Below are positions 10,319 through 24,800 of a stretch of DNA of 64,000 bases, in pieces. The stretch lies in assembly GCF_900103215.1 (NCBI RefSeq), contig NZ_FNGV01000007.1, forward strand, positions 186,001 through 250,000, given 5' to 3'. Position 1 is the first letter of the stretch. Every line of letters begins with the position of its first letter. A model generated the notes under the pieces. The model was given only the letters and a program-made list of their open reading frames with translations, did no database searches and was not told where the DNA came from. The position numbers and the translations under genes were made by a program. The DNA is from Kriegella aquimaris. Its GTDB lineage: Bacteria > Bacteroidota > Bacteroidia > Flavobacteriales > Flavobacteriaceae.

Positions 10319-11350
10319 TCATTTTTTTAACCATTTTATGGCTGCAGAAATTGTGGGGTCATCCAGCAGCTTATCATAATCATCATTACTTTTGACATAG
10401 ACATCAGGCTTCACGGACAACTCTTCGTAGACATATTTTTTTCCGTCCGCAATTTTATTTACACTGAGTAAAAGGTAGCCTTGATTTTTCATAAATAAAA
10501 AACCTTCAGTCGCACTGCAAAAACCAGGTGTTGATTCGCCAAAGACCTTAACATTTGGTTGTTGTTTGAGATAGACTGCTAGTATCTCTCCTGAACTAAT
10601 GGTAGATTTCCCGATCAGTACGGCCATAGGAATATGAACCTTATTGGAACAACTTTCTTGTATATTCGCCAGTTTGTTACCATTTTCATCAATGGCTACT
10701 CCTTTTCTAATTTTAGAAGGTGCTAGAAACTTTCCGTCCCTGTCCACCCCATAACCTAAGATTGTATCAGTGAGCAAGGGTTCTATCCCAGTAATCATGG
10801 GGGCTGAATTCCCTCCCGTATTCATTCGGAGGTCAATAATCAAGGATTTAGGCCGCTTTTCAAGAAGACTGCACAATGAATCTCTTAACATTTTTGCCCT
10901 TTGGTCAATATCTTCTTGATTGGTAATGTTCATTGAAGGAATTCTAAGATACCCTATATCATTTGCAAGATATTCGGTCACAATTCTTGGACCTTTTAAA
11001 AACTCCTTTTTTATAGCTTCACCAAGTACCTCATCAAAATTTATGGGAGGCGGGTATCTGTAAGAAGAAGTTTCATTCATTGCCATACCATGATAGTCTT
11101 TCAATTGTTGAAATCCGTATACTATCGCCGGAAAGGCTTCGCTATAAGTCTTGGCATCTTTTGCCTTTACGTATGCCGAATCTCTTATCTGATGCCAATT
11201 TAAGTTCTTTCCAAATAAAGATTTGGATTGCATTATATGAAGAGCGCTATCAATGTAAACCTTGACCGAAACTGGCATTTGCCCTTGTATCTCGCCTCTG
11301 GAGCAAAGAAATAGGCAAAGAAATAAACTAAGTTTAATAAATTCTTTCAT
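10319..11350 (-). CDS. Secreted S41 family peptidase
   Basis: The 343-residue protein has an N-terminal signal peptide (hydrophobic LSLFLCLFLC, then GQ) and a peptidase S41 (C-terminal processing protease/tricorn-like) domain. The signature LIIDLRMNTGG lies at about 170-180 and the catalytic serine is in TISSGE at about 251-256, with GESTPGF following. No PDZ domain is evident, so it is a compact form. It probably acts in the periplasm or outside the cell on peptides. It is the last of a minus-strand series with two more S41 enzymes and a beta-lactamase-like hydrolase; 156 bp separate it from the upstream gene, so it may have its own promoter. Confidence 0.88.
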   Translation of the reverse strand: MKEFIKLSLFLCLFLCSRGEIQGQMPVSVKVYIDSALHIMQSKSLFGKNLNWHQIRDSAYVKAKDAKTYSEAFPAIVYGFQQLKDYHGMAMNETSSYRYPPPINFDEVLGEAIKKEFLKGPRIVTEYLANDIGYLRIPSMNITNQEDIDQRAKMLRDSLCSLLEKRPKSLIIDLRMNTGGNSAPMITGIEPLLTDTILGYGVDRDGKFLAPSKIRKGVAIDENGNKLANIQESCSNKVHIPMAVLIGKSTISSGEILAVYLKQQPNVKVFGESTPGFCSATEGFLFMKNQGYLLLSVNKIADGKKYVYEELSVKPDVYVKSNDDYDKLLDDPTISAAIKWLKK

Positions 11351-11506
11351 AATAATTTCTATTTAGATTTTGACAATGTGAGAATCACCGATAAAAATTC
11401 AAACGTTATGCAATATTCTTATGACATTTATTGTACTTCGCCATTAGGCTTTGTAAAAATTCATGAAAAACTAGACTTCGCAATCTTGAATCTAGCAGTG
11501 GCCGTT

Positions 11507-12829
11507 TTATATGGATACATTTGGTCTTCTTACCAACAATTCCTTGATTTTGTTAGAAAGAAAATGCCCAAATGGAGGCTCGGTGTTTGACAGTACGATG
11601 GCAATATGATTTGTGTTCGGGTAAAGGTTCAGTTCCACACAAACGTTGATGAATCCGCCGCTATGGCCTACGATATGTTCATGACCAATGAGGTGGTGCT
11701 CCGTTCCGTAACCATAGTGGCCATCTACCGTTTCATCGAACAGACATTTTTGGGTGCTGGGGCCTAATAATTGGCCGTTGTTCAAACCTCTTAGGAACAG
11801 ATGTATGTCGCCTACTGTTGATGTGCCGCCACCCGCACCCGTTCCGGCAGCGGTATACTTCATTTTTAATGGCTCAAAAATGTTCTCCTCCACATATTCT
11901 TGAAAAGTTAGCCCGCTAATTTTTTCTATAATTATTCCTAATAGACCAAATCCTGTATTACTATAGCGTAAATCAGTTCCTGGAGCAAAATGAAGTTTGT
12001 CGGCTTCTATAAACGGCATAAAGCTTTTCGAGGATACCAAGTCGTCCTTTAATTTTTCGTATAACGGACTCTCGAAAAAATCGCCCATTCCCGAGGTATG
12101 AGTAAGCAATTGGGCCAAGGTAATAGCATGTAGTTTATTGTTCTTTAGATCGGGTAAAAATGTGACGACGGTATTATCCAGATCCAATTTTTTCTGGTCT
12201 TGTAGCTGTAAGATTGCTATTGCGGTAAACATCTTGCCCGCCGAAGCGAGGCTAAATTGGGTGTTCAGGGTATTGGGCTTCCCTTTGGTATCTTTTCCGA
12301 ATGATTTGTTATATAATGTTTTATCACTTTTTGAGATGAATACATTTCCCGAAAAGCCTTTGTCTAGCTTATGGGTGATGTAGTCGTCAAGCGCGGCCTG
12401 TAGTTCCTTTTTTTTCAATTTACCAGACTTCAGACCAATTTCAGGTAACGGCAAGGGAATTATCTTTCGCTCCAAAAACTTTTGGTTTTCGTCCGTGGAT
12501 ATCATAAACCTCCACCACGTATCGTATTTGCCTTCTTTTACTATCAGATCCATTTTGGAGGTAGAAACATACACCCAATCTTTCACTTCTACTTTCCCTA
12601 ACAGGTTATACGTGTTTTTATGGCCTTGTAGCGTGCGTTTGACAGTTTCCCCGTCGCTGGAAATCGTGCTTAAAAATCTGTGATATTGCAACGTGTCCCC
12701 TGTATTGTAAATCGTTATAAACCGTTCGGCCTCGGCTTTTAATCGGTCTTTCTCAATTGGATTTTGTGAAATTCCCATAATGGATATTAGCATGCCTAAA
12801 GTGAATACTAGTTTGATTTTTTGTTTCAT
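11507..12829 (-). CDS. Secreted serine hydrolase, class C beta-lactamase family
   Basis: The 440-residue protein has a signal peptide, an N-terminal domain of about 140 residues and a beta-lactamase/DD-peptidase-like domain. The serine nucleophile motif SAGK is at about 196-199, YSN at about 289-291 and the KTG-equivalent HSGG at about 389-392. Such proteins are usually esterases, peptidases or carboxypeptidases, not antibiotic-resistance enzymes. It starts 14 bp after the stop of an S41 peptidase gene, so the two are probably in one transcript and export together. The N-terminal region is unassigned. Confidence 0.88.
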   Translation of the reverse strand: MKQKIKLVFTLGMLISIMGISQNPIEKDRLKAEAERFITIYNTGDTLQYHRFLSTISSDGETVKRTLQGHKNTYNLLGKVEVKDWVYVSTSKMDLIVKEGKYDTWWRFMISTDENQKFLERKIIPLPLPEIGLKSGKLKKKELQAALDDYITHKLDKGFSGNVFISKSDKTLYNKSFGKDTKGKPNTLNTQFSLASAGKMFTAIAILQLQDQKKLDLDNTVVTFLPDLKNNKLHAITLAQLLTHTSGMGDFFESPLYEKLKDDLVSSKSFMPFIEADKLHFAPGTDLRYSNTGFGLLGIIIEKISGLTFQEYVEENIFEPLKMKYTAAGTGAGGGTSTVGDIHLFLRGLNNGQLLGPSTQKCLFDETVDGHYGYGTEHHLIGHEHIVGHSGGFINVCVELNLYPNTNHIAIVLSNTEPPFGHFLSNKIKELLVRRPNVSI

Positions 12830-12843
12830 TTGCCTTTTTTTAA

Positions 12844-14307
12844 TTATAAATCCGTCTTGAAAACCAACTGACGTGATTCGGTATTTTCTTTAAGTATTTC
12901 CATGGCCCGTTCCATAACCTCATCTTTTTTGAATAACTTCCCTTCAATAGTTGGTCTTACCTCGTAATCTGGAATGACACCCTGGTCTTTGAACGCATAG
13001 TCCCCAACCGCGGTATAATAAGCCAACAGTGGTATGCCGAGATCAATCTTGGAATTGGGTAGCTTGACAATGGCAAAGGCACCGCTATTATTGCCATGGT
13101 AGCCACCTCCTGTCTCCTCCCCGATGAACACAGCACGTTTCAGGTGGTGCGCCACGGCCGCAAACTCCGAGGTTACAGAAAAGCTGCCGCCATTGATTAA
13201 TACAATGACCTTTCCTAGAAAAGGATTGTTTTGTGGTTTTTGAATTTTGAGGTTCTTGTTTTTCTTCCATAGGTACTTGCCGTTATCGTTCTTGGATAAC
13301 ATTCCACGCATCAACCCATAAAATTTGGGCAGGCGGGCATGTTCGTGAAAGGAAAATTTTTTATCGGTGACGGCCTCCAACCGATCGTAGTATGAAAACG
13401 ATTTATCTACCAAATACGATAATAACAAGGCACCATAGGCATCCTTGCCTCCTTCATTATTCCTCAGATCAAGGATTAAATTCTCGACTTCGTTGGCACG
13501 GATCTCTGTAAAAGAGGATTTAAGAAAATTCTTGAAATTTGATTTGTCATCGGGCCAAAAGGAAATTATGGTCATAACGGCCGTTTTGTGGTCCTCGGTA
13601 ATTTCCAATTGAAAAGGAGTCTCTGGATTTTCGTTTTGCTGTTTCGCCTTGATTTCTTCCAAAGTAACCGGATTAAGCGTAACCGTTTTTTCAATTTCAT
13701 CTTCGAGATAGTCCACGATAAAGCGATTTGGCGGATTTTCTACGTTGGTAATTATGTTACCATACAGACCGTTGAAAAATTTGTTTATTTCATAATATTT
13801 GAACGTGGTATTCCGGCCATCTGAGAATAGTGTTTTTTTTAGTTTTTCGACAATCTTTTTCATACCCTCCCCGTTAATGGCCAAAATTTGGGTATTTGGC
13901 TTAAAGGGCATTTCCTTCCCGTATGAGGATACTGCATAAGCCGTATCACCTTCGAAAAATAGTTGAAGCGGGAATAAAGTCTGTGTATTATAATAATAGT
14001 TGTAAGTATCAATTTTAGGTGGGAGCAATTTGGTATGCCCGCATCCTATTTCCGAAATCAACGGTAGTAATTTCTTGTAGAATTCCTGCTCCGACAGCGG
14101 TGTTTTTAGACTATTTTGAATAGACTTAAAATGTGTATCCATTTGTGCTTTTGAAGTATATCGATAAAGACCAGGGTGTGCCTCTTCAAGAGCAGTCCTA
14201 AAAAAATGGAAATCGTTCTGTAATTCATTCGGATTTAGTATGGGTAGTTTTTGAGCACCTAGTGCCGCACTCAAAAGAAACGTTCCTAAATAAAGTATCT
14301 TTTTCAT
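12844..14307 (-). CDS. Secreted S41 family peptidase
   Basis: The 487-residue protein has a signal peptide (YLGTFLLSAALGAQ) and a helical N-terminal domain rich in charged residues. The S41 domain contains LILDLRNNEGG, the catalytic-serine motif GGSFSVTSEF, and GEETGGGYHGNNSG, which matches the conserved GExTxG strand. It is predicted to be periplasmic or secreted. Its ATG is 28 bp downstream of the small secreted protein gene, and the serine hydrolase gene starts 14 bp after its stop, so these form the core of an operon. Confidence 0.9.
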   Translation of the reverse strand: MKKILYLGTFLLSAALGAQKLPILNPNELQNDFHFFRTALEEAHPGLYRYTSKAQMDTHFKSIQNSLKTPLSEQEFYKKLLPLISEIGCGHTKLLPPKIDTYNYYYNTQTLFPLQLFFEGDTAYAVSSYGKEMPFKPNTQILAINGEGMKKIVEKLKKTLFSDGRNTTFKYYEINKFFNGLYGNIITNVENPPNRFIVDYLEDEIEKTVTLNPVTLEEIKAKQQNENPETPFQLEITEDHKTAVMTIISFWPDDKSNFKNFLKSSFTEIRANEVENLILDLRNNEGGKDAYGALLLSYLVDKSFSYYDRLEAVTDKKFSFHEHARLPKFYGLMRGMLSKNDNGKYLWKKNKNLKIQKPQNNPFLGKVIVLINGGSFSVTSEFAAVAHHLKRAVFIGEETGGGYHGNNSGAFAIVKLPNSKIDLGIPLLAYYTAVGDYAFKDQGVIPDYEVRPTIEGKLFKKDEVMERAMEILKENTESRQLVFKTDL

Positions 14308-14335
14308 GGTTTAATTTTTTAAAATTTTAAAAATG

Positions 14336-14818
14336 TTAATTCGTTTTGACCCGGATTTCGCTACTGGATACTGGACGCTTGAAAATATACCGTGTTATGA
14401 AAATGCCATTCGGATCTTCGTCCCCATTCGAACTTTCAACACCGCTGTTTACGAAGGCTAATTCCCAGCCCTGATCGGCCAGATTGTTCAGCTTTGAGGT
14501 GATCACAGCATCATTGGCCGCAATATTTTGAAAACGGATACCGCCAAGATTGAAAAAGTTCAACAGCTTGGTCTCCTCAAAATTTTTGATCCTGATTTCG
14601 CCCCTATCTGATTTATTCCTTTCGTCATCCTCTGCGCTGCGAGTAGCGGTAAACTCCTTGTAATCCCTACTTTCTAAGGGATCTATCATTCTAGATCTGC
14701 CCAAACCGTTTGGTACGATGGATTCTACTGTTGTAATAGTCTTGTAGTCAAAACTTTGGCCCCAAGTACTAATGCCGATCGAGTACATAAAAACGAAGAT
14801 TATGTGTTTGATTTTCAT
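14336..14818 (-). CDS. Small secreted protein, DUF4177-like motif
   Basis: The product has 160 residues with a clear signal peptide (IIFVFMYSIGISTWGQ). The mature part is charged. A C-terminal segment LNNLADQGWELAFV resembles the core of DUF4177-type proteins (LxxLGxxGWELV), but the match is short and tentative. Function is unknown. It lies between two S41 peptidase genes in the same orientation, so it may be a substrate, inhibitor or partner of those peptidases; that is inference from position only. Confidence 0.7.
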   Translation of the reverse strand: MKIKHIIFVFMYSIGISTWGQSFDYKTITTVESIVPNGLGRSRMIDPLESRDYKEFTATRSAEDDERNKSDRGEIRIKNFEETKLLNFFNLGGIRFQNIAANDAVITSKLNNLADQGWELAFVNSGVESSNGDEDPNGIFITRYIFKRPVSSSEIRVKTN

Positions 14819-14883
14819 TGATTCAAGTTTTAATTGTTGATGATTTTTGAATAGTTACTTTTTGATTGCCTGTATTTTTAGGG

Positions 14884-16188
14884 TTAGTTAACTTCCAAAA
14901 GGGAATTGACATATCCGTTCTGGAAATGGGTATTTGGATTGGCGGGATCGGTAATCCATCGCCCATCAACTATAAATTTATAGCTTATCGTTCCAGGTTT
15001 GACCTCTGCTTCCGCTACCCATTTATCGTTTCTTTTGGTCATTTTTAGGTCTGTTTCCCAAAAATTGAACGAACCCGAAAGAACCACTTCTTTTGCATTG
15101 GTGTATCCCTCTAGAATAAATTGCACTTTTCGAAATTCAGGTCGAGCTGTTTGGACCTTTTGGATCTGGTCGGCCAGAATTATCTTTTGAGCCGTATCGG
15201 TCGTAAATTTCAGAATAGTCTTCAATGCCCAAAGATGACCGGTATACAATGCCATATTGGATTTCACGATACTATCGGGTACTACCCCTATACCTTCCCA
15301 ATTGGTTTTGCTGATAGGGTTGATAGCTTGCATATAGGGCACCGCGATTGCATAGTGCTTGTTTATAGGTACCTGTTGGTTCGGGTTTGCTCCTCCCTTG
15401 GTAGTTTCTCCGATTAATTTGGCCCGTTTCTGTTGTTTTAAGTCATAGGCCAATTCTTCGCCCCCCGAAAAGGTCCGTCGGCTGGTTAGAACATAAATCG
15501 GTTTGTCTACATATTTTTTGTAGGGCAGCCAAGCATACGTCCAAAATTGTTTGGTGGAATTGTTCCGGCGTGTGTAAAAATCAAATAAATGAACTGGTTC
15601 CTTGAAAAAAAAGCTGCATAGAAAGGGTATGGTATTTTCGTCCAAACTTCCCCTGCAATTTCGCAGATCTAGGATAAGCGCTTTTGTATTCTCGATTTTT
15701 CGTATGGCGGCTACCAAGGTATCGGCACATTGCGCTAACGGGCCGAAGATGGGTAATTCCATGTAGCCGATGTTACCTTCGAGAACTTCTACATTGGTAA
15801 CGCCATATCGGTTCTCTTTTAGAATAGTGTCCATCCATTCTAGCTGTTCCTTTAGTTCCAGTTCCGTTGGTATGCTGTCGGTGGAAATTTCATTCTGGCT
15901 GTAAGAAACGCTCAGGTGAAGATCTTTGGAAATTTCCCTTAAATCATTTGTCAGCTGAAAAGCGAACTCCCTATCATCGGAAATGGCGTCGTATTTACCC
16001 GATACAAAATGTTCCATTATCCCGATTTTCATGGTTTCTGCCATTTTCGGAAATACATAGCTATCCTCTAATATCCTGCCTATATTGGAAAGAATTTCCT
16101 TTTTTTCGTTAACGGACAGTTGTGCAAAGTTGGTGGTGGAAATGAAAAACACCATAAATGCTACCGCTAGTTTAATTGTTTTGTTCAT
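14884..16188 (-). CDS. S41 peptidase with C-terminal glycogen-binding (CBM48-like) domain
   Basis: The 434-residue secreted protein begins with a signal peptide (AFMVFFISTTNFAQ). An N-terminal helical region is followed by a peptidase S41 domain with LILDLRNCRGS, catalytic-serine motif TFSGGEE and GETTKGGANP. The last 85 or so residues are a distinct immunoglobulin-like domain with VVLSGSFNFW, YKFIVDGRW and DPANPN, which match the AMPK-beta/CBM48 glycogen-binding fold. A peptidase fused to a glycan-binding module suggests it is targeted to glycan-linked protein or to an alpha-glucan surface. It heads the hydrolase operon, separated from the PKD lipoprotein gene by a hairpin. Confidence 0.88.
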   Translation of the reverse strand: MNKTIKLAVAFMVFFISTTNFAQLSVNEKKEILSNIGRILEDSYVFPKMAETMKIGIMEHFVSGKYDAISDDREFAFQLTNDLREISKDLHLSVSYSQNEISTDSIPTELELKEQLEWMDTILKENRYGVTNVEVLEGNIGYMELPIFGPLAQCADTLVAAIRKIENTKALILDLRNCRGSLDENTIPFLCSFFFKEPVHLFDFYTRRNNSTKQFWTYAWLPYKKYVDKPIYVLTSRRTFSGGEELAYDLKQQKRAKLIGETTKGGANPNQQVPINKHYAIAVPYMQAINPISKTNWEGIGVVPDSIVKSNMALYTGHLWALKTILKFTTDTAQKIILADQIQKVQTARPEFRKVQFILEGYTNAKEVVLSGSFNFWETDLKMTKRNDKWVAEAEVKPGTISYKFIVDGRWITDPANPNTHFQNGYVNSLLEVN

Positions 16189-16276: not shown

Positions 16277-18364
16277 TTATCTGTGAACATTTCCCAATGA
16301 CAGATCTTCAAATTGATTGGTGGTTTCGACGTTACTATTGATTATCGCTCTATCATCTTCCAGAACAATACCATAACCCAGACCGTGCGTTATTTTTGAA
16401 TTGGTAATGGTCAGATTAGCAAGATAATTTCCATCAAGGCCTATGGCTGTAATTTGAGAAATACCCGGCATATCTGTTTTGCCCGCATAACTTACTTCGG
16501 TAAAATCCATTACATTTTTGGGACTTTTGGACTGAAAGCGGATTCCGTTCCAAAAGCCCTTTGTTTCTTTCATCCCTGTAAATACTATCTTTTGTACATC
16601 GGTGCCCTTTGCTTCCAAATAGCCATTGGGAAAAATTCCGATCATTTTATCTTCGGCAAGTTTGAAAACGGCACCTGGAAGTATTTTAAGCCCAGATTGT
16701 ATAGACAGATTACCACTTATCAAGTAGGTTGCGCCAAAGTTCAGGGCAGGCCATACAGATTCGGTCTGATTCAGGAGAATGGAGCCGAAAATTTCGACAC
16801 CATCATGTCCGTTTCCAGTAAATTGTAATGCAGGAGCCTGTCCCAGTTTCGCTATTTCGTTGGCCGGTAAGGTGACTGCGGGACCTTTGTTGTCTATAAA
16901 TTTGATGAAACCAAAACTGTCAATTTTGGCGCCATTTTCCACCAACAATCCGTTGCCTCCGCTTCCAGAAATTATGGAATTCGATATTTTTAATCGGGCG
17001 TTAGCCTTTCCATACAAACCAATAGCGGTTTTGGTAGCAAAACCATCGATTATGGCATTGCCTGCATCAAATATTTCTACATGTTTCAGTACATTGTTTT
17101 CTTTGTTCGATTTAATGGATATTCCATTCCAGAACCCATCGACCATTGTCTGCGTTCCATGAAACTTAATCGGGTTTTGTGGTGAACCGATTGCTGTCAT
17201 AAAACCTGTCGGGGTCACCAGTACTTCCGCGTTATGTTCGAAAAGGAATTCAACTCCTTCGTAGATATGGACGCCGGAGGCAATTTCAATATTGCCTTCT
17301 ACTACATAAGAAATGGTATTTTCAACTTGGGCATTACCAGACCGAAGGGGAATCCAATGCGAAATTTCGGACATATTTACCCTGTCCCCAATTACATGAA
17401 TTGTGTTGTTCACATTATCCATAAACTCCATCAGTCCATTGAGCGATCCCAATTGTGATGCGGGAAGCACCATTATTTTCTCGTTGTTGTTAAAAGTATT
17501 TCCTAAGGGAAGATTCAAATTACCTCCGCCATCAACGACTAGGCCATAACCAGCACTATATTGAATTGTTGAATTAGCCAATGTCAAGTTGGATGAATTG
17601 GAATTGCCAACAACTAGGGCACTTGCAAAATCAATTCCATCGGCAGCCGAACTACCTCCATATTCAATCGTTGTCCTTTCCAGAATATTAGAAGTCGTAT
17701 TAGATTTAATTATAAGGCCTTTCCAATATCCTGGGGTTTTGACCTTACCTGTGAAAACGATTTGGGCTTCGGGGGATCCTATTCCCTGAATCGATCCCGG
17801 TGAATCGATAAACATGCCTTTGTCGGTTTCAAATGCTACGGTGACCGATGGGTCTATGGTAAGAGCTGCTTTCACATGAATATCCCCGGTAACTAGATAA
17901 TCGATTTTAGTATTATCCTCAAATATGTTGACCAGGTGGGTGTCTACGTTAATATCTTCATCTAGAATTATTGTTTCGTCTAAATGATGGTCATCAATCT
18001 CCTTTACGGAAAGTGAAATTTCGTCGGTATCAAAAAAAGATTGGTTGTAAATCTTAAGTTCTACGACATAATTGCCTGCTTTATCGGGAGTGAATTTGGG
18101 GGTTGCGGTAGTTTGATTTTCCCACTCGCAAGCGCTCGTGGCTGGTTTGTTCTTAAAGCTCCACAAATATTGAAACGGTTTGCCCGCTTTATCCTTTGAC
18201 TGGGAACCGTTTAATGTTAATAGCTGACCTATGAATAGTTGTACATCGTTCAAACTTCCGGCATCCGCTTCAAGGGTGTTCATAGAATAGTCGATAGTAT
18301 CGTCTTTTTCGCATGCGAAAAGCATTGCCAAATAAATTGCCAGAAAAATTAAGTTTGTTCTCAT
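16277..18364 (-). CDS. PKD-domain lipoprotein with three beta-helix-like repeats
   Basis: The 695-residue protein has a lipobox (LAMLFAC, Cys 18), so it is exported and anchored. A PKD-like domain spans about 33-122 (FQYLWSF, AGNYVVELKI). Then come three homologous units of about 130 residues, near 160-290, 350-480 and 550-680. Each contains a GIGSP or equivalent turn, an IVFTG strand, a GxWxGI motif and an ITNSxI-xxGxGxGL strand, which is typical of right-handed parallel beta-helix proteins. It probably binds surface or extracellular polymer; no catalytic residues are evident. A copy of the 21-bp dyad motif lies 126 bp upstream of its start, linking it to the adjacent two-component system. 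Confidence 0.8.
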   Translation of the reverse strand: MRTNLIFLAIYLAMLFACEKDDTIDYSMNTLEADAGSLNDVQLFIGQLLTLNGSQSKDKAGKPFQYLWSFKNKPATSACEWENQTTATPKFTPDKAGNYVVELKIYNQSFFDTDEISLSVKEIDDHHLDETIILDEDINVDTHLVNIFEDNTKIDYLVTGDIHVKAALTIDPSVTVAFETDKGMFIDSPGSIQGIGSPEAQIVFTGKVKTPGYWKGLIIKSNTTSNILERTTIEYGGSSAADGIDFASALVVGNSNSSNLTLANSTIQYSAGYGLVVDGGGNLNLPLGNTFNNNEKIMVLPASQLGSLNGLMEFMDNVNNTIHVIGDRVNMSEISHWIPLRSGNAQVENTISYVVEGNIEIASGVHIYEGVEFLFEHNAEVLVTPTGFMTAIGSPQNPIKFHGTQTMVDGFWNGISIKSNKENNVLKHVEIFDAGNAIIDGFATKTAIGLYGKANARLKISNSIISGSGGNGLLVENGAKIDSFGFIKFIDNKGPAVTLPANEIAKLGQAPALQFTGNGHDGVEIFGSILLNQTESVWPALNFGATYLISGNLSIQSGLKILPGAVFKLAEDKMIGIFPNGYLEAKGTDVQKIVFTGMKETKGFWNGIRFQSKSPKNVMDFTEVSYAGKTDMPGISQITAIGLDGNYLANLTITNSKITHGLGYGIVLEDDRAIINSNVETTNQFEDLSLGNVHR

Positions 18365-18809
18365 ATTGATTGTTCTGAATTTTGATTCTTAAAAACGTTT
18401 GCTTTCATTTTAAAAAGTTGTGTTATTGTATCACTCATCTGAAATGCATGAAATATTTACGATACAAAGGAAGTACAGCGTTTCAATGTCTACAATCGCA
18501 TAAATATGTGAAAATGAAGATGCTCAAAACAATTTAAAAAGTGGTTAAAAGAACGAAGGGCTAAGCTTTCTGCTTTGGAAAGAGAGCGAATAAATTCGAT
18601 TGAGGAAAAAGGGCGAGATTGCCCCTTAAAACCAATCAGGTAACCCTAGTCTTGAAACCGTCAAAATTTTGTAGAAAAGGAATAGAAAAAAGTACGCGAG
18701 CAAGTTTATGTTACAAATCTTCCGTCAGCAACCTGACACCTATGCAATTCCCATGTTCTTACCCCCTCGTCCGTATCAAGGTTCTAAGGGTGTGTAAGAA
18801 TACTTTAAA
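18365..18809. other. Intergenic region upstream of PKD lipoprotein gene
   Basis: These 445 bp separate the PKD gene from the 3' end of the response-regulator gene on the same strand. Apart from one copy of the 21-bp regulatory motif (18490-18510) I see no gene or repeat. The promoter of the PKD gene must lie here. Confidence 0.5.
18490..18510 (-). promoter_or_regulatory. 21-bp dyad motif, copy A
   Basis: Read on the minus strand this is CACAT-ATTT-ATGCG-ATTGTAG, differing from copy B (19480-19500) at only 2 of 21 positions. It lies 126 bp upstream of the PKD lipoprotein start. It is a candidate operator for the NarL-type response regulator encoded next door. Confidence 0.6.
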
Positions 18810-19445
18810 TCAGAGAAGTCTATCCTTAAAGGCTTTGGCCACAGCTTCGCTCTTACTGTTGACGTGAAGTTTTTCGTATATTTTTTTAATATGTGAACGT
18901 ACGGTATCGATGGCAATGAATAGGTCATTGGCAATCATTTTATAGCTATACCCTTCGACCAGCAGATGCAATACCTGTCTTTCACGTTCGCTCAAATCAT
19001 ATTCGTGATGCTTGGTCTGCGCGGTGGCCTTAAACATTTTGAGTACCTGCGCCGCAATGGAGGAGGTCATAGGTGCGCCACCCTCGGTCGCATCTTGTAT
19101 GTATTCCAATAATTTCGCAGGTGGTGTCTTCTTGAGCAGATACCCGTCGGCCCCGTTCCTCAAAGCCTCGAAAACATTTTTGTTGTCGTCGAAAACGGTC
19201 AGCATCAGTACCTTGGTCTCCGTGTTGATTTCCCGTATTTGTCTCAGCCCCTCTAATCCATCTGTACCGGGCATATTGATGTCCATCAAGATAACATTTG
19301 GCTTCCATTTTTGGACCTCTTCCTTTATGTTGTCACAATTCTTATAAGCTGCCAAAACGGAAAAACCGATACTACCATCGATAAACATGGTAAGTCCCTC
19401 GCGGAACTGTGCATTATCTTCGTATATCAACACACGTATCATCAT
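18810..19445 (-). CDS. NarL/LuxR-type response regulator
   Basis: The 211-residue cytoplasmic regulator has an N-terminal receiver domain: acidic pocket E9/D10, phospho-acceptor D55 in VILMDINMPG, the switch Thr in LMLTVFDD and the conserved Lys in YLLKKT. The C-terminal LuxR helix-turn-helix (about 147-205) contains LSERERQVLHLLVEGYSYK and TVRSHIKKIYEKLHVNSK. It is transcribed behind the histidine kinase, with 40 bp between them, and is its likely partner. A copy of the 21-bp motif lies 35 bp upstream of its start, overlapping the kinase 3' end, which suggests feedback on its own promoter. Confidence 0.94.
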   Translation of the reverse strand: MMIRVLIYEDNAQFREGLTMFIDGSIGFSVLAAYKNCDNIKEEVQKWKPNVILMDINMPGTDGLEGLRQIREINTETKVLMLTVFDDNKNVFEALRNGADGYLLKKTPPAKLLEYIQDATEGGAPMTSSIAAQVLKMFKATAQTKHHEYDLSERERQVLHLLVEGYSYKMIANDLFIAIDTVRSHIKKIYEKLHVNSKSEAVAKAFKDRLL

Positions 19446-19479
19446 TTTTTTTGATAAAATTAGGAATAGAAAAGATTCA

Positions 19480-19500
19480 CTACAATCACATAAACATGTG
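19480..19500 (-). promoter_or_regulatory. 21-bp dyad motif, copy B
   Basis: On the minus strand this reads CACAT-GTTT-ATGTG-ATTGTAG, containing a perfect 5+5 inverted repeat with a 4-base spacer. It overlaps the last codons of the histidine kinase gene and lies 35 bp before the response-regulator start. The preservation of a dyad within and just beyond coding sequence argues for a functional binding site. Confidence 0.6.
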
Positions 19501-22500
19501 TATATTGGTTTTATCCATAGGCATATCCAATAGTATTTCTGTTCCGTTTTGAGGTAAACTCTTTATATAGAGTCGCCCCCTCAACGAATGGGCCCGTTTT
19601 CGCATATTGTCAAGACCGTTACCGGTATCGGCCTCACTTATATTGAATCCTTTTCCGTTATCCTTGATGCCCATGTGAAGTCGCTTTCCTTGACAATACA
19701 TATGCACGACTACCTTATCACTATAAGAGTACTTTGCCGCGTTGTTGATGGCTTCCTTAAAAATCAGGAAGAGGTCTCGCCTTGATTCCATATCGAGTCT
19801 AAGGGCATTGATTCGGTCGTCGATTTGAAAATCGAACCTGATGTCTTTTGCCTCGAGTAAACCTGTGGCATATTCACGCATTCGTGCCAAGACCCTTTGC
19901 ATACTATCATTATCGGGCTTGATACTCCAAACGATATCATCCATGGCCTCCATCATCCGTTGGCTGTTATCAGTTATCTTTGTCAGGTAGTTGCTACTGG
20001 TCACGGTATCTTCGACCATTTTACTCTTGGCCATCGAACTTAAAATATTGATGGTGCTCAGGGTAGCCCCCATATCGTCATGAAGGTCCCTGGCCACTTT
20101 ATTGCGCAGTTTTTCAAGAGCCAATAAACGGTTCATTTTTAGTCGATAGATAAGGTAGGCTAGACTCAATACAAGTACGGATGAAAGTATAATAAACCAC
20201 CACGTACCATAGAACGGAGGCAGTATTTTGAAGTCGACCCTAGTGACCCTTTCGGATTCTTCGCCATGTAGATTTCTTGATTTTACCTCGAACGTGTAGT
20301 TACCAGGGGGCATCGTCGTATAATTTGCTGCCAAATCCCTTTCTGCCTTTACCCAATCTTTATTTATGCCCGATATTTTATAAAAATACTGGAGTTTGTG
20401 CTGTTCGTTAAAATTTAAGGCCGAAAAATAAAAGGTAAAGGAATTCTGGTAATGTTCGAAGGTAATCTGTCTTTGAGCCAAAATCGAATCCAATGGTATG
20501 AACCGATTGAACAGCTTAAAATCGGTCAGAATTACGCTCGGTGGTTTTTGTTTATGTTGCAACGCCTTAGGATCGAACCCGAAAACCACATCTTCACCTC
20601 CGAACCATATTTCACCATTTTGCATCTTCCATTTTGTAGCATTCGCTTTGTCTCCATAAATAATACCGTGTAAGTTGTTATAGGAACTTATCATATCCTT
20701 TTCATAGTTATAGCTGCTCAAGCCATTGTTGGTAATCATCCAAAGGATACCGTCATCGTCTATCATAAGTTGTGATAACTTAGAGCCGTAGAGGCCATCA
20801 TAGGCCGATATTCTCTTTACCTCACCCGACCTTATATTTAGGATATTGAGTACTTCGGAACCTAAGAAAAAAATACTATCATTGTATTGTTGGATATCGG
20901 AAATAGTGTTGCCCACAACCGAAAATTGGTCTCCAAATTCTCTATCGAAATAAAATAGGATATTGCCATTGTCGGGGTCAATTACATATACCCCTTGTTT
21001 ATGGGTGCCTATCCATAACCGTCCCTGATTATCAAAATAAAGTCGGTAAATAATGGTATTGAAATTGTGGATTTTTTGAAATGACATATCGGAAATCGCA
21101 TCATTTTTATCCCATTTTACTAAATAGCCGCTCTGGGTACCGAACCAGAGATTGCCATTCTTGTCTTCGCGTATTTGGCGGACTGTGGATTTGTTGAAAA
21201 CGGGAGGCCGCAACCAAGAGAACGCTCTTTTGGTTTGTGGATCGAAAACTGTCAGGGTTCCTTCTTGTGAAGCTGACCAGATATTACCGGTAGCACCATG
21301 TTGGCACAAATCCCAAATTTTACCATACGATTCAAAACCCGCATTTCCTATTTGCGTATAGGGATTTCCTTCGATTTTTTGGAACTTATTATCGTAGAAC
21401 AAGAGTCCATTGCCCCAAGTACCAATCCAATTTTCATGGTTTTGTGTCTCCAATAGGGCATTTACGGCGGACTCATGTTTCAAACCTTCGATAATCACCA
21501 GATTATAAACGTCTCGCAGATTCGGGTTCACCATGTAAAGGCCATTGGCGGTGCTCAACCAAACATTGCCCTCCGAATCTTCAATTATATGTCTAATATC
21601 GTCCGATTTTATGTCGAATTCCAACGGCGTGGCCTTGAGCTGCTGACTGAAACGGTTCCGGTCATTATCATAAACGAAGAGTGCATTTGCACCTGCAACC
21701 CAAAACTGTCCGTTACTTGTTTCCAATAAATGTTCAAGAAAAGCATAGTGATCAGGGGAATGGCCCCCCAAAGTATCGGACAACATCTTTTTTTGATCGG
21801 GATCGTAGTGCAATAGAACGGATCTTTGCTTGGAACTATCGAAATCCCAATAGGCCGCCCACCAGGTTTTTTTGCTGTCTTTTAAAAAAGCGTTTACGTT
21901 TGGAAGCTTTTTTTGATCAAAAAAGGAAATTTGGGCAGGGTTATTTTCATTATAAAAAAGCTCGTTGGTCGAACTGTTGAAAAGAGCCAGTCCTTGGTCG
22001 CTAGCAATAAAATATTCTCCTGTTTCGGCATCTTCGAACAAACCGTTTACGCCCCATCCTTTTGGCACATGAATAGGTATGTCGGTATCTACGAAGGCCC
22101 CCGTTTTTGGGTCGAACCACAATAACCCGTATTTGGAAGCGCATAAAAAGACTCTTCCCTTACTATCCTTAAAAAGTTTGAACTGATTTCTGGGTGGTAC
22201 ATGGCCCGTAGTCTTTATCCGTGTATCGCTGTAGTTGAAAGTAAAGGCATCGAACTGGCCTAGCTGTGAACCCTGCAAAAGCCAAAGTTTGCCATCTTCG
22301 GCACCTATAATTTGATCAACGCCGAGACTTGGCGGCAAACGGTCATTTTCATCGCCCCGGAAGGAAACGAATTTTCTTCCGTCAAAACGTTGGATACCAA
22401 CCTCGGTACCTATCCAAAGAAACCCTTTTTCGTCTTGCCAAACACAGTTGATTTTATTCGTATTTAGGCCGTCAGAAGTCGAGTATCGGTTAAACACATA

Positions 22501-22563
22501 GGTATACTGTCCAAAAACACAGCTTTGGACAAAGAGCATCCAACAAATCATCGTTAAACGCAT
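19486..22563 (-). CDS. Two-component sensor histidine kinase with Reg_prop beta-propellers and Y_Y_Y domain
   Basis: The 1025-residue sensor has a signal sequence, then about 700 residues of Reg_prop propeller repeats (recurring WIGTxxG, NLWFGTQSG and LWIGTHKQG motifs) predicted to lie in the periplasm. A Y_Y_Y domain follows (NYTTMPPGNYTFEVKSRN), then one transmembrane helix (WWFIILSSVLVLSLAYLIY). The cytoplasmic part has a HisKA_3 segment with the phospho-His in ARDLHDDMGATLS (about residue 830) and an HATPase domain (EAINNAAKYS, DNGKGF, GNGLDNM). In Bacteroidota such sensors usually detect glycans or their fragments. It partners the NarL-type regulator immediately downstream. Two copies of the 21-bp motif lie upstream. 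Confidence 0.93.
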   Translation of the reverse strand: MRLTMICWMLFVQSCVFGQYTYVFNRYSTSDGLNTNKINCVWQDEKGFLWIGTEVGIQRFDGRKFVSFRGDENDRLPPSLGVDQIIGAEDGKLWLLQGSQLGQFDAFTFNYSDTRIKTTGHVPPRNQFKLFKDSKGRVFLCASKYGLLWFDPKTGAFVDTDIPIHVPKGWGVNGLFEDAETGEYFIASDQGLALFNSSTNELFYNENNPAQISFFDQKKLPNVNAFLKDSKKTWWAAYWDFDSSKQRSVLLHYDPDQKKMLSDTLGGHSPDHYAFLEHLLETSNGQFWVAGANALFVYDNDRNRFSQQLKATPLEFDIKSDDIRHIIEDSEGNVWLSTANGLYMVNPNLRDVYNLVIIEGLKHESAVNALLETQNHENWIGTWGNGLLFYDNKFQKIEGNPYTQIGNAGFESYGKIWDLCQHGATGNIWSASQEGTLTVFDPQTKRAFSWLRPPVFNKSTVRQIREDKNGNLWFGTQSGYLVKWDKNDAISDMSFQKIHNFNTIIYRLYFDNQGRLWIGTHKQGVYVIDPDNGNILFYFDREFGDQFSVVGNTISDIQQYNDSIFFLGSEVLNILNIRSGEVKRISAYDGLYGSKLSQLMIDDDGILWMITNNGLSSYNYEKDMISSYNNLHGIIYGDKANATKWKMQNGEIWFGGEDVVFGFDPKALQHKQKPPSVILTDFKLFNRFIPLDSILAQRQITFEHYQNSFTFYFSALNFNEQHKLQYFYKISGINKDWVKAERDLAANYTTMPPGNYTFEVKSRNLHGEESERVTRVDFKILPPFYGTWWFIILSSVLVLSLAYLIYRLKMNRLLALEKLRNKVARDLHDDMGATLSTINILSSMAKSKMVEDTVTSSNYLTKITDNSQRMMEAMDDIVWSIKPDNDSMQRVLARMREYATGLLEAKDIRFDFQIDDRINALRLDMESRRDLFLIFKEAINNAAKYSYSDKVVVHMYCQGKRLHMGIKDNGKGFNISEADTGNGLDNMRKRAHSLRGRLYIKSLPQNGTEILLDMPMDKTNIHMFM

Positions 22564-22655
22564 TTGACCCTATTTTACAACTCAAAATTATATAAAGATT
22601 TGATATGTTATTATTAAAATGAGGTAAATTAATTCAAGCGTTAAAACACGCCGAC

Positions 22656-22676
22656 CACATGAAAATGTGATAGGAA
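22656..22676 (+). promoter_or_regulatory. 21-bp dyad motif, copy D (diverged)
   Basis: CACAT-GAAA-ATGTG-ATAGG keeps the perfect 5+5 dyad and matches copy B at 15 of 21 positions. It is 93 bp upstream of the histidine kinase start, oriented opposite to copies A and B, and its left edge is 66 bp from that of copy C, about six helical turns. Confidence 0.5.
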
Positions 22677-22721
22677 ATAAGAGGGAGCCATACCATTTTT
22701 TAATGCATTTTCACATGATTG

Positions 22722-22742
22722 TGCGATTGTGGAAAATAGAAT
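22722..22742 (+). promoter_or_regulatory. 21-bp dyad motif, copy C
   Basis: CACAT-GATT-GTGCG-ATTGTGG matches copy A at 17 of 21 positions. It lies 159 bp upstream of the histidine kinase start, in the same orientation as copy D. Its flank TGCATTTT resembles the flank of copy A. Confidence 0.55.
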
Positions 22743-22970
22743 TACGGGCGATTTTTGTTCCTGTGATTTTAACCTGGAAAAATATAAAGTCGCGTGAACA
22801 TTCGCTAATTATATAAAGACATTGACAGAAACAAAAAACCATTATCTCTTTATCAATTTTAAAAACAGTAAAAGATAGGTTTGATCGGATTACGGAAGGT
22901 TCCGACTTTGATTTCCGAACTGGATAGGGTTTATTCCCACTCCTCATAAATAACTTTAAATAGTGCTAAG

Positions 22971-23093
22971 ATGAAAAAACTACAATTAGATTTAAATCGA
23001 ATTATTGAACAGATTGGGTACTCAGTGTACCTCCACTATCTGTTGTGGCGTTTGAAAAAATATAAATATTACCTTAATGGTAGAAGAAAATAA
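22971..23093 (+). CDS. Possible 40-residue basic small protein
   Basis: An ATG-initiated ORF of 40 codons encodes a product rich in Leu, Tyr, Arg and Lys (MKKLQLDLNRIIEQIG at the start, ending GRRK). It has the A-rich leader typical of local starts, but no family is recognised. The next 100 bp in a shifted frame encode a hydrophobic segment, so this may be the front of a frameshifted membrane-protein gene rather than a complete small protein. Confidence 0.3.
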   Translation: MKKLQLDLNRIIEQIGYSVYLHYLLWRLKKYKYYLNGRRK

Positions 23094-23636: not shown

Positions 23637-24800
23637 ATGAATCATCAAACTAAATTTATTCCTTCTTTAACGCCTCTCAGAGGTATAGCGGCCACCTTAG
23701 TAGTTTTTTTTCACTATCACATATTTATTGGCCCACTAACAACGCCTGAGAATTTTATGATTTCCAAATTGTATTTGATGGTAGATTTATTTTTTGTTTT
23801 AAGTGGATTTATAATGGTTCATGTTTATGGAGAATGGTTTAAACTAAAAATAGAGAAGGGAAGTTTTTTGAAATTTATTAAAGCTAGATTTGCAAGGTTA
23901 TACCCTCTTCATATCATCACGTTTTTCTATTTGTGTATGTGGATAATCTACATGAAGTCACAAATAGTTTTTGGGCAAACACCTGCCATAATTCAAAATA
24001 TTTTTGATAATACTGCAATTTTTGGAGTACTAACGTTAACCCAAGCTTGGGGGACACATATGGAAGCTACATGGAACACAGCATCTTGGTCTATAAGTGT
24101 TGAGTTCTTTCTTTATCTTTTGTTTCCATTTATTGCGTGGGTAATGAATAGACGAAAACACTTTATAAAAATATCATTAGGAATAGGTGCGCTAATATCC
24201 CTTTTTTATTTGAGTTATGTGATTGAACCTGAATGGATAAAGGAAATTACTCAACAACGACATTTTACCGCAGAACAAATGAGGTATCGCCCATCTAACA
24301 CAATTGATGTAATAACTGGTTTTGCTTTATTAAGAGGCCTTTGTAGTTTCATTTTTGGCATGATAACCTATGAATTATACAAAAAGGGAACAGGGAAACA
24401 AGTACTGAAACATGGACATTGGTTTTTAGTAATTTGGGGCGGTCTTTTCCTTTTTTGGTTTAACGACCTACTTCCTGACCCTTTGGCGATACCTATTTTT
24501 TCATTTCTTATTCTACAAGTAGCTTACGCTGAAGGATACTTAAGAAAAGTTTTGAATGGTAAGATATTCACATACCTTGGTAACATATCTTATTCAATTT
24601 ATATGATTCATATACCGATTATTCTTACTGTATTTATTGTTTCATTAATCAAAGGAGAGATGCCATCATCGCCCGATAAAATAGATTTTTTACAAAATTG
24701 GGTTGGTGCTTTTATCCTATATGTAGTAGTAATTTTTACTGCTTCGGTTACATACAGATTTATAGAAAAACCAGCTCGAAATAAACTGAGGCGAATTTAA
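23637..24800 (+). CDS. Acyltransferase 3 family membrane protein
   Basis: The 387-residue integral membrane protein has about ten hydrophobic helices. It shows the family hallmarks: an N-terminal LRGIAATLVVFFHY with the catalytic-type His, DLFFVLSGF, a basic loop KARFARLYPLH, and SWSISVEFFLYLLFP. Such enzymes O-acylate exopolysaccharide, lipopolysaccharide or peptidoglycan sugars using acyl-CoA at the inner membrane. It is monocistronic: a module-1 promoter lies upstream and a strong terminator 55 bp downstream. Its codon use is more AT-rich than that of its neighbours, which may mean recent acquisition. Confidence 0.92.
   Translation: MNHQTKFIPSLTPLRGIAATLVVFFHYHIFIGPLTTPENFMISKLYLMVDLFFVLSGFIMVHVYGEWFKLKIEKGSFLKFIKARFARLYPLHIITFFYLCMWIIYMKSQIVFGQTPAIIQNIFDNTAIFGVLTLTQAWGTHMEATWNTASWSISVEFFLYLLFPFIAWVMNRRKHFIKISLGIGALISLFYLSYVIEPEWIKEITQQRHFTAEQMRYRPSNTIDVITGFALLRGLCSFIFGMITYELYKKGTGKQVLKHGHWFLVIWGGLFLFWFNDLLPDPLAIPIFSFLILQVAYAEGYLRKVLNGKIFTYLGNISYSIYMIHIPIILTVFIVSLIKGEMPSSPDKIDFLQNWVGAFILYVVVIFTASVTYRFIEKPARNKLRRI

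Follow-up and report, generated by a model that had tools for sequence, protein, structure and literature searches.

A predicted local regulon of a NarL/LuxR-type response regulator in Kriegella aquimaris, marked by a dyad motif conserved across Bacteroidota

A 64,000-nt stretch of the Kriegella aquimaris genome (contig NZ_FNGV01000007.1, positions 186,001 to 250,000; referred to as the window, from a genome of 6.06 Mb) encodes a sensor histidine kinase and an adjacent response regulator (RR) of the NarL/LuxR type, around which lie four copies (sites A-D) of a short dyad motif. The motif is very probably the operator of this RR and part of promoters under its control. An earlier sequence-only reading had taken the motif as the mark of a regulon of the adjacent RR, and this was supported in every comparative test run: conservation at orthologue loci, fixed spacing to the promoter, confinement to the locus within the genome, enrichment in genomes that hold the RR, and tracking of the RR recognition helix by the motif. 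The earlier reading is refined in that, within this genome, the predicted regulon does not extend past the locus.

The four related copies around the kinase/RR pair are seen both by direct reading of the sequence and with a scoring matrix that was trained on 204 sites of relatives only, with the window excluded, and to which all scores given here refer. The consensus is best given as TTTCACAT-N4-RTGYGATTG. Site A (18493-18510, minus strand; CACATATTTATGCGATTG) scores 39.6 bits and is separated by 20 nt from a TAnnTTTG-like –7 box, TTCCTTTG (18465-18472, minus strand), and site B (19483-19500, minus strand; CACATGTTTATGTGATTG; 29.3 bits), which overlaps the kinase stop codon, has its box TAATTTTA (19455-19462, minus strand) at the same spacing. 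Site C is a near-palindrome (22652-22673) that can be read in either direction, with near-equal scores on both strands (21.6/20.7 bits): the minus-strand reading (22652-22669) is CACATTTTCATGTGGTCG with the box TAATTTAC at 22631-22624, and the plus-strand reading (22656-22673) is CACATGAAAATGTGATAG with a weak box. Site D (22712-22729, plus strand; CACATGATTGTGCGATTG) has the top score in the window, 41.6 bits, and its box GATTTTTG (22750-22757, plus strand) again lies 20 nt downstream; it points in the direction opposite to the kinase gene, whose upstream sites thus have both orientations. The positions and gene distances first given for A, B and C hold (126 bp to the lipoprotein gene, 35 bp to the RR gene and 93 bp to the kinase gene), whereas D had been placed ten bases off, at 22722-22742; the kinase gene starts about 149 bp from it. 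Perfect 5+5 arms (CACAT/ATGTG), first ascribed to B and D, are found in B and C, D having CACAT/GTGCG, and between A and B three of the 21 quoted positions differ, not two.

The spacing of 20 nt was first spotted by eye within the window; relatives, with the window excluded, then served to test it. No kinase orthologue was found at 1e-100 among 119 sampled relatives, and the RR was therefore taken as query instead; it retrieved 80 Bacteroidota loci (RR identity 68-84%) from Flavobacteriaceae, Chitinophagaceae, Cyclobacteriaceae, Prolixibacteraceae and others. These loci contain 207 distinct motif copies with at most one mismatch, and in 148 of them TAnnTTTG, the –7 box of sigma-A promoters, follows the motif at a distance of exactly 20 nt (at most one mismatch; 52 perfect), a fixed operator-to-box spacing as expected of a class-II activated sigma-A promoter of Bacteroidota; no other offset is shared by more than nine copies. 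By transcript mapping in Flavobacterium psychrophilum, TAnnTTTG spans –12 to –5 (PMC9723704), which together with the fixed spacing puts the dyad centre near –43.5 for each predicted start. The ATTG on the 3' side of the dyad then coincides with the –33 region. Predicted transcription start sites lie at ~18460 for A, with the lipoprotein ATG 96 nt further, at ~19450 for B, which leaves the RR gene only a very short leader, at ~22619 for C towards the kinase, with a leader of 56 nt to the kinase ATG, and at ~22762 for D. The predicted position of the dyad is typical of a class-II activator.

The same geometry bears on the strongest alternative, which we consider unlikely, namely that the dyad is indeed the RR operator but acts in repression, by occlusion of the promoter at –33, with phosphorylation either releasing or tightening the repressor. 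Since the motif contains the –33 position, fixed spacing alone does not tell an activator from a repressor: the motif overlaps the –33 region, an operator built on it would also show fixed spacing to the –7 box, and autorepression is frequent among regulators. A position near –43.5 is, on the other hand, typical for activators of the NarL/LuxR family, and in other genomes sites outside the locus precede single secreted-protein genes, as is usual for a positively controlled regulon, although neither point is decisive.

The assignment of the motif to this RR is supported by its recognition helix (IDTVRSHIKKIY). The element lies upstream of 88 of 93 RRs with a DTVR[STD]HI helix and of only two of 36 with other helices, both exceptions being rows in which the helix was unreadable to the script. 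A protein-only search, blind to the motif, found additional RRs with the same helix and confirmed the split by helix class. Remote RRs, only 32-38% identical to that of the window and drawn from six of the family genomes in which the motif with its box had a match, have the helix DTVR[ST]HIK and the dyad AACCACAT-N4-ATGTGRTTG, both before the RR and facing away from the kinase; RRs at 41-46% identity have different recognition helices and the dyad is absent. A different motif, ACCC-N4-GGGT, is found upstream of 11 of 12 RRs with an NT[VI]KAH helix and of none of the other RRs, which suggests a second operator specificity. This class is seen at loci L236-L244, L036, L043 and L046, upstream of the RR, with ATTG on the 3' side in several cases. 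A third specificity is possible, of the type GACACAAATGCGTC-ATTG with the helix [IV]QTVRNHIR, from two examples only (L029 and L032; also L052 and L056). By alignment, the altered helix positions match the residues KV in STVKVHVK of NarL, which we take, with no confirming paper found, to include DNA-contacting residues. A generic test for dyad, ATTG and box, applied to every RR class, was positive in 12 of 52 cases and in 4 of 251 control windows, which is suggestive only, and we therefore claim no architecture common to all LuxR-type RRs.

These data also speak to the idea that another regulator, for example one of the CRP/FNR family, binds the motif and controls the locus, which is very unlikely. 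The half-site letters TCACA/TGTGA resemble those of the CRP site, albeit in the opposite orientation, but the dyad sequence shifts when the recognition helix of the RR shifts, and the motif is near-absent from the 199 family genomes save those with a same-helix RR. In those genomes, the composite element (motif, 20 nt and TAnnTTTG) has 23 matches outside the genome of the window, against three for the control; 15 of the 23 are in genomes shown to have a same-helix RR, and the other eight are single matches in other genomes. In 37 genomes that hold the RR, there are 130 composite matches with at most two mismatches and one for the reversed-pattern control.

An element before the kinase, the RR and target genes had been put forward as the arrangement of an autoregulated two-component regulon; it is found in the window and is conserved in relatives, where gene boundaries come from a simple open reading frame (ORF) caller. 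A site lies upstream of the RR in 65 of the 79 RR loci counted, and this RR-proximal site is kept in Flavobacteriia, Chitinophagia, Cytophagia and Bacteroidia. The closest RR is that of Arenibacter certesii (L059; 84% identity), and sites C and D each align with counterparts in this species. Arenibacter loci have further sites before the kinase, a beta-helix lipoprotein gene and a DUF2807 gene, as well as an S41 peptidase divergent from the kinase; the lipoprotein belongs to the family found behind site A in the window. It is extremely unlikely that site B, rather than an operator, is an RNA element or a piece of the kinase reading frame. The overlap with the kinase stop codon is what recommends that view, whereas many relatives have another gene, an acyltransferase, upstream of the site, the stop position varies relative to the site, the site with its box also precedes other genes outside coding sequence, and no Rfam family matches. 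That the overlap of B and the stop codon might itself be conserved was also considered, and was rejected on the wide variation of the offset among loci.

Within its own genome, the element was examined by pattern searches with the reversed pattern as control. The bare motif is not significantly enriched in the window (11 matches with at most three mismatches against 7.8 ± 2.8 expected), and genome-wide it has 43 matches with at most two mismatches against 20 in the control. The composite element, searched with at most three mismatches, recovers all four copies at the locus, three of them with one mismatch and the fourth with three, plus a single additional three-mismatch match, against one in the control, in agreement with the prediction that the motif would not be common at random genome sites, since the match outside the locus is at chance level. 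A perfect bare match at C16:269421 is missing from the composite search, hence has no good –7 box at the 20-nt spacing, and was taken as chance. With the matrix from relatives, the next best position in the window after A-D reaches 5.0 bits; 2 Mb of first-order Markov sequence gave at most 12.6 bits, and a set of 29 shorter sequences at most 15.3. Once the –7 box or the matrix is used, the comparison with chance is decisive for the four copies. Functionless chance palindromes or a dispersed repeat, a view favoured only by the near-expected bare count in the window, are thus of negligible probability and are refuted by the independent-matrix scores, the promoter spacing and the conservation.

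Several observations weigh against the operator as proposed, or against activation from it. The fixed spacing would suit a repressor equally well, with ATTG doubling as the –33 element. The helix/motif association is partly phylogenetic and its rows are not independent: in the RR tree, the two DTVRSHI groups form separate, well-supported clades whose relative placement is not settled, so that helix and operator may have been inherited together. The strict RR-proximal site is missing in some loci of the clade and is degraded in A. certesii, the nearest relative. Finally, site C has poor boxes and the box of D begins with G.

Taken as an activated operator, the motif would fit the following scheme. 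The kinase, through its periplasmic β-propeller/Y_Y_Y sensor, would phosphorylate the RR, a dimer of which would bind the CACAT/ATGTG dyad centred near –43.5, with the trailing ATTG forming or overlapping the –33 element; the TAnnTTTG box 20 nt downstream would be used by sigma-A RNA polymerase. Sites C and B would serve the system's own kinase and RR, site A a lipoprotein/S41-peptidase operon, and site D a divergently transcribed RNA carrying a small ORF. We infer the binding of the RR, its dependence on phosphorylation, activation over repression, how the operon is organised and what kind of signal is sensed.

The predicted regulon in this genome comprises the kinase, the RR and the lipoprotein/S41-peptidase operon, and probably includes a 40-aa ORF on the 3' side of site D. 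This candidate (22971-23093, plus strand) has a counterpart, also of 40 aa, in the corresponding position of A. certesii (L059:6342-6566); differences between the two by codon position (18, 14, 20) are weak coding evidence. An acyltransferase at 23637 was not taken as a clear target of D, having no relative among the neighbourhood proteins.

Cell-envelope proteins make up the majority of predicted targets. In other genomes, sites outside the locus lie mostly before secreted or lipoprotein genes, the targets being cytochrome c family proteins (Cytochrom_C, in several genomes), a DUF2807-like protein, an OmpA-domain protein, a GldB-type lipoprotein and others; some of the matches outside the locus are inside genes or not next to them and may be chance. 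An ECF sigma factor is found behind a site in Cyclobacteriaceae. In ten Arenibacter loci (L060-L069 near 12.96-13.2 kb; L064 near 14.4 kb), the first ORF behind a motif promoter encodes a highly conserved protein of 40-42 aa, MKAFDNYRRIP...RRFT, with differences by codon position (194, 130, 444) biased to the third position. Chitinophagaceae have first-ORF families of 62-76 aa behind motif promoters. One family of 62-63 aa, starting MKGKYITTS and ending DELK[LMF][AS], is found at the divergent site upstream of the kinase in L081, L089, L090, L098, L099 and L102. A Pfam scan of representative small proteins gave no match above the cut-off. A broader proposal, which we regard as speculative and distinctly doubtful as a whole, is that unnamed small proteins (40-75 aa), encoded directly after these promoters in several lineages, belong to the core output, that some would be exported and feed back on the β-propeller sensor in a self-sensing or envelope-surveillance loop, and that a helix/operator code may be readable, DTVRSHIK with CACAT/ATGTG and NT[VI]KAHIK with ACCC/GGGT.

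The system resembles NarXL/NarQP and UhpBA-type pairs in that an RR with receiver and GerE/HTH_LuxR domains is paired with a HisKA_3 kinase, but differs in its periplasmic Reg_prop/Y_Y_Y sensor and its Bacteroidota –7 promoter; the operator CACAT-N4-ATGTG is also unlike the NarL heptamer TACYYMT. The sensor architecture of Reg_prop and Y_Y_Y is shared with the hybrid two-component systems (HTCS) of Bacteroidota polysaccharide utilisation loci, in which kinase, receiver and an AraC-type domain are fused in one protein and which adjoin susCD-type genes. In contrast, the kinase in the window terminates in HATPase_c, a gene of its own encodes the GerE-containing RR, and the site-A operon encodes a lipoprotein, S41 peptidases and a beta-lactamase-family hydrolase. 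Class-II promoters of the LuxR family, such as that with the lux box near –42.5, likewise have a dyad over –35/–33 at a fixed distance from the –10/–7 box, but differ in operator sequence, sigma-A box type and phylum. To our knowledge, few operators are known for LuxR-type regulators paired with β-propeller sensors in Bacteroidota, and no description of the motif or regulon was found in the literature, a weak negative as subscription papers were mostly not covered. A phylum-wide operator with a defined promoter geometry and a target list makes this unnamed regulon directly testable, and the natural helix/operator pairs make recognition testable by swapping. They also give a handle on the outputs of β-propeller sensors, which would include secreted or lipoprotein genes, the cytochrome c family, DUF2807, S41 peptidases, ECF sigma factors (Cyclobacteriaceae) and small unannotated proteins.

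All genes of the two-component system and of the site-A operon are on the minus strand. The kinase (19486-22563; 1025 aa) consists of Reg_prop repeats, Y_Y_Y, HisKA_3 (PF07730) and HATPase_c (PF02518), which makes it a HisKA_3-class partner, and the RR (18810-19445; 211 aa) of Response_reg (PF00072, 2.6e-24) and GerE (PF00196, 1.3e-17), as in NarL/LuxR-type RRs. Catalytic motifs are intact in both, with the phospho-acceptor LHDD in the kinase and the receiver aspartate in MDINMP of the RR. The NarL structure 1a04 is the best solved structure for the RR, matching over its full length (4.2e-29). The best NCBIfam models are NarL for the RR and UhpB for the kinase, all NCBIfam scores being far under the curated cut-offs; at 149 bits against a cut-off of 250, the RR is not assigned as a NarL equivalog. 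In many Chitinophagaceae loci (e.g. L119, L122, L123, L126), an Acyl_transf_3 gene that is absent there in the window lies between kinase and RR. The interval 18530-18780, between the RR gene and site A, is intergenic with no ORF assigned and is possibly decayed sequence. The first gene behind site A encodes the PKD/beta-helix lipoprotein (16277-18364), and the likely remainder of the operon (10319-16188) follows in the same orientation with gaps of 14-156 bp: an S41 peptidase with AMPK1_CBM (14884-16188), a 160-aa protein (14336-14818), an S41 peptidase (12844-14307), the beta-lactamase-family hydrolase (11507-12829) and a further S41 peptidase (10319-11350). Their shared strand and short gaps make co-transcription from site A likely.

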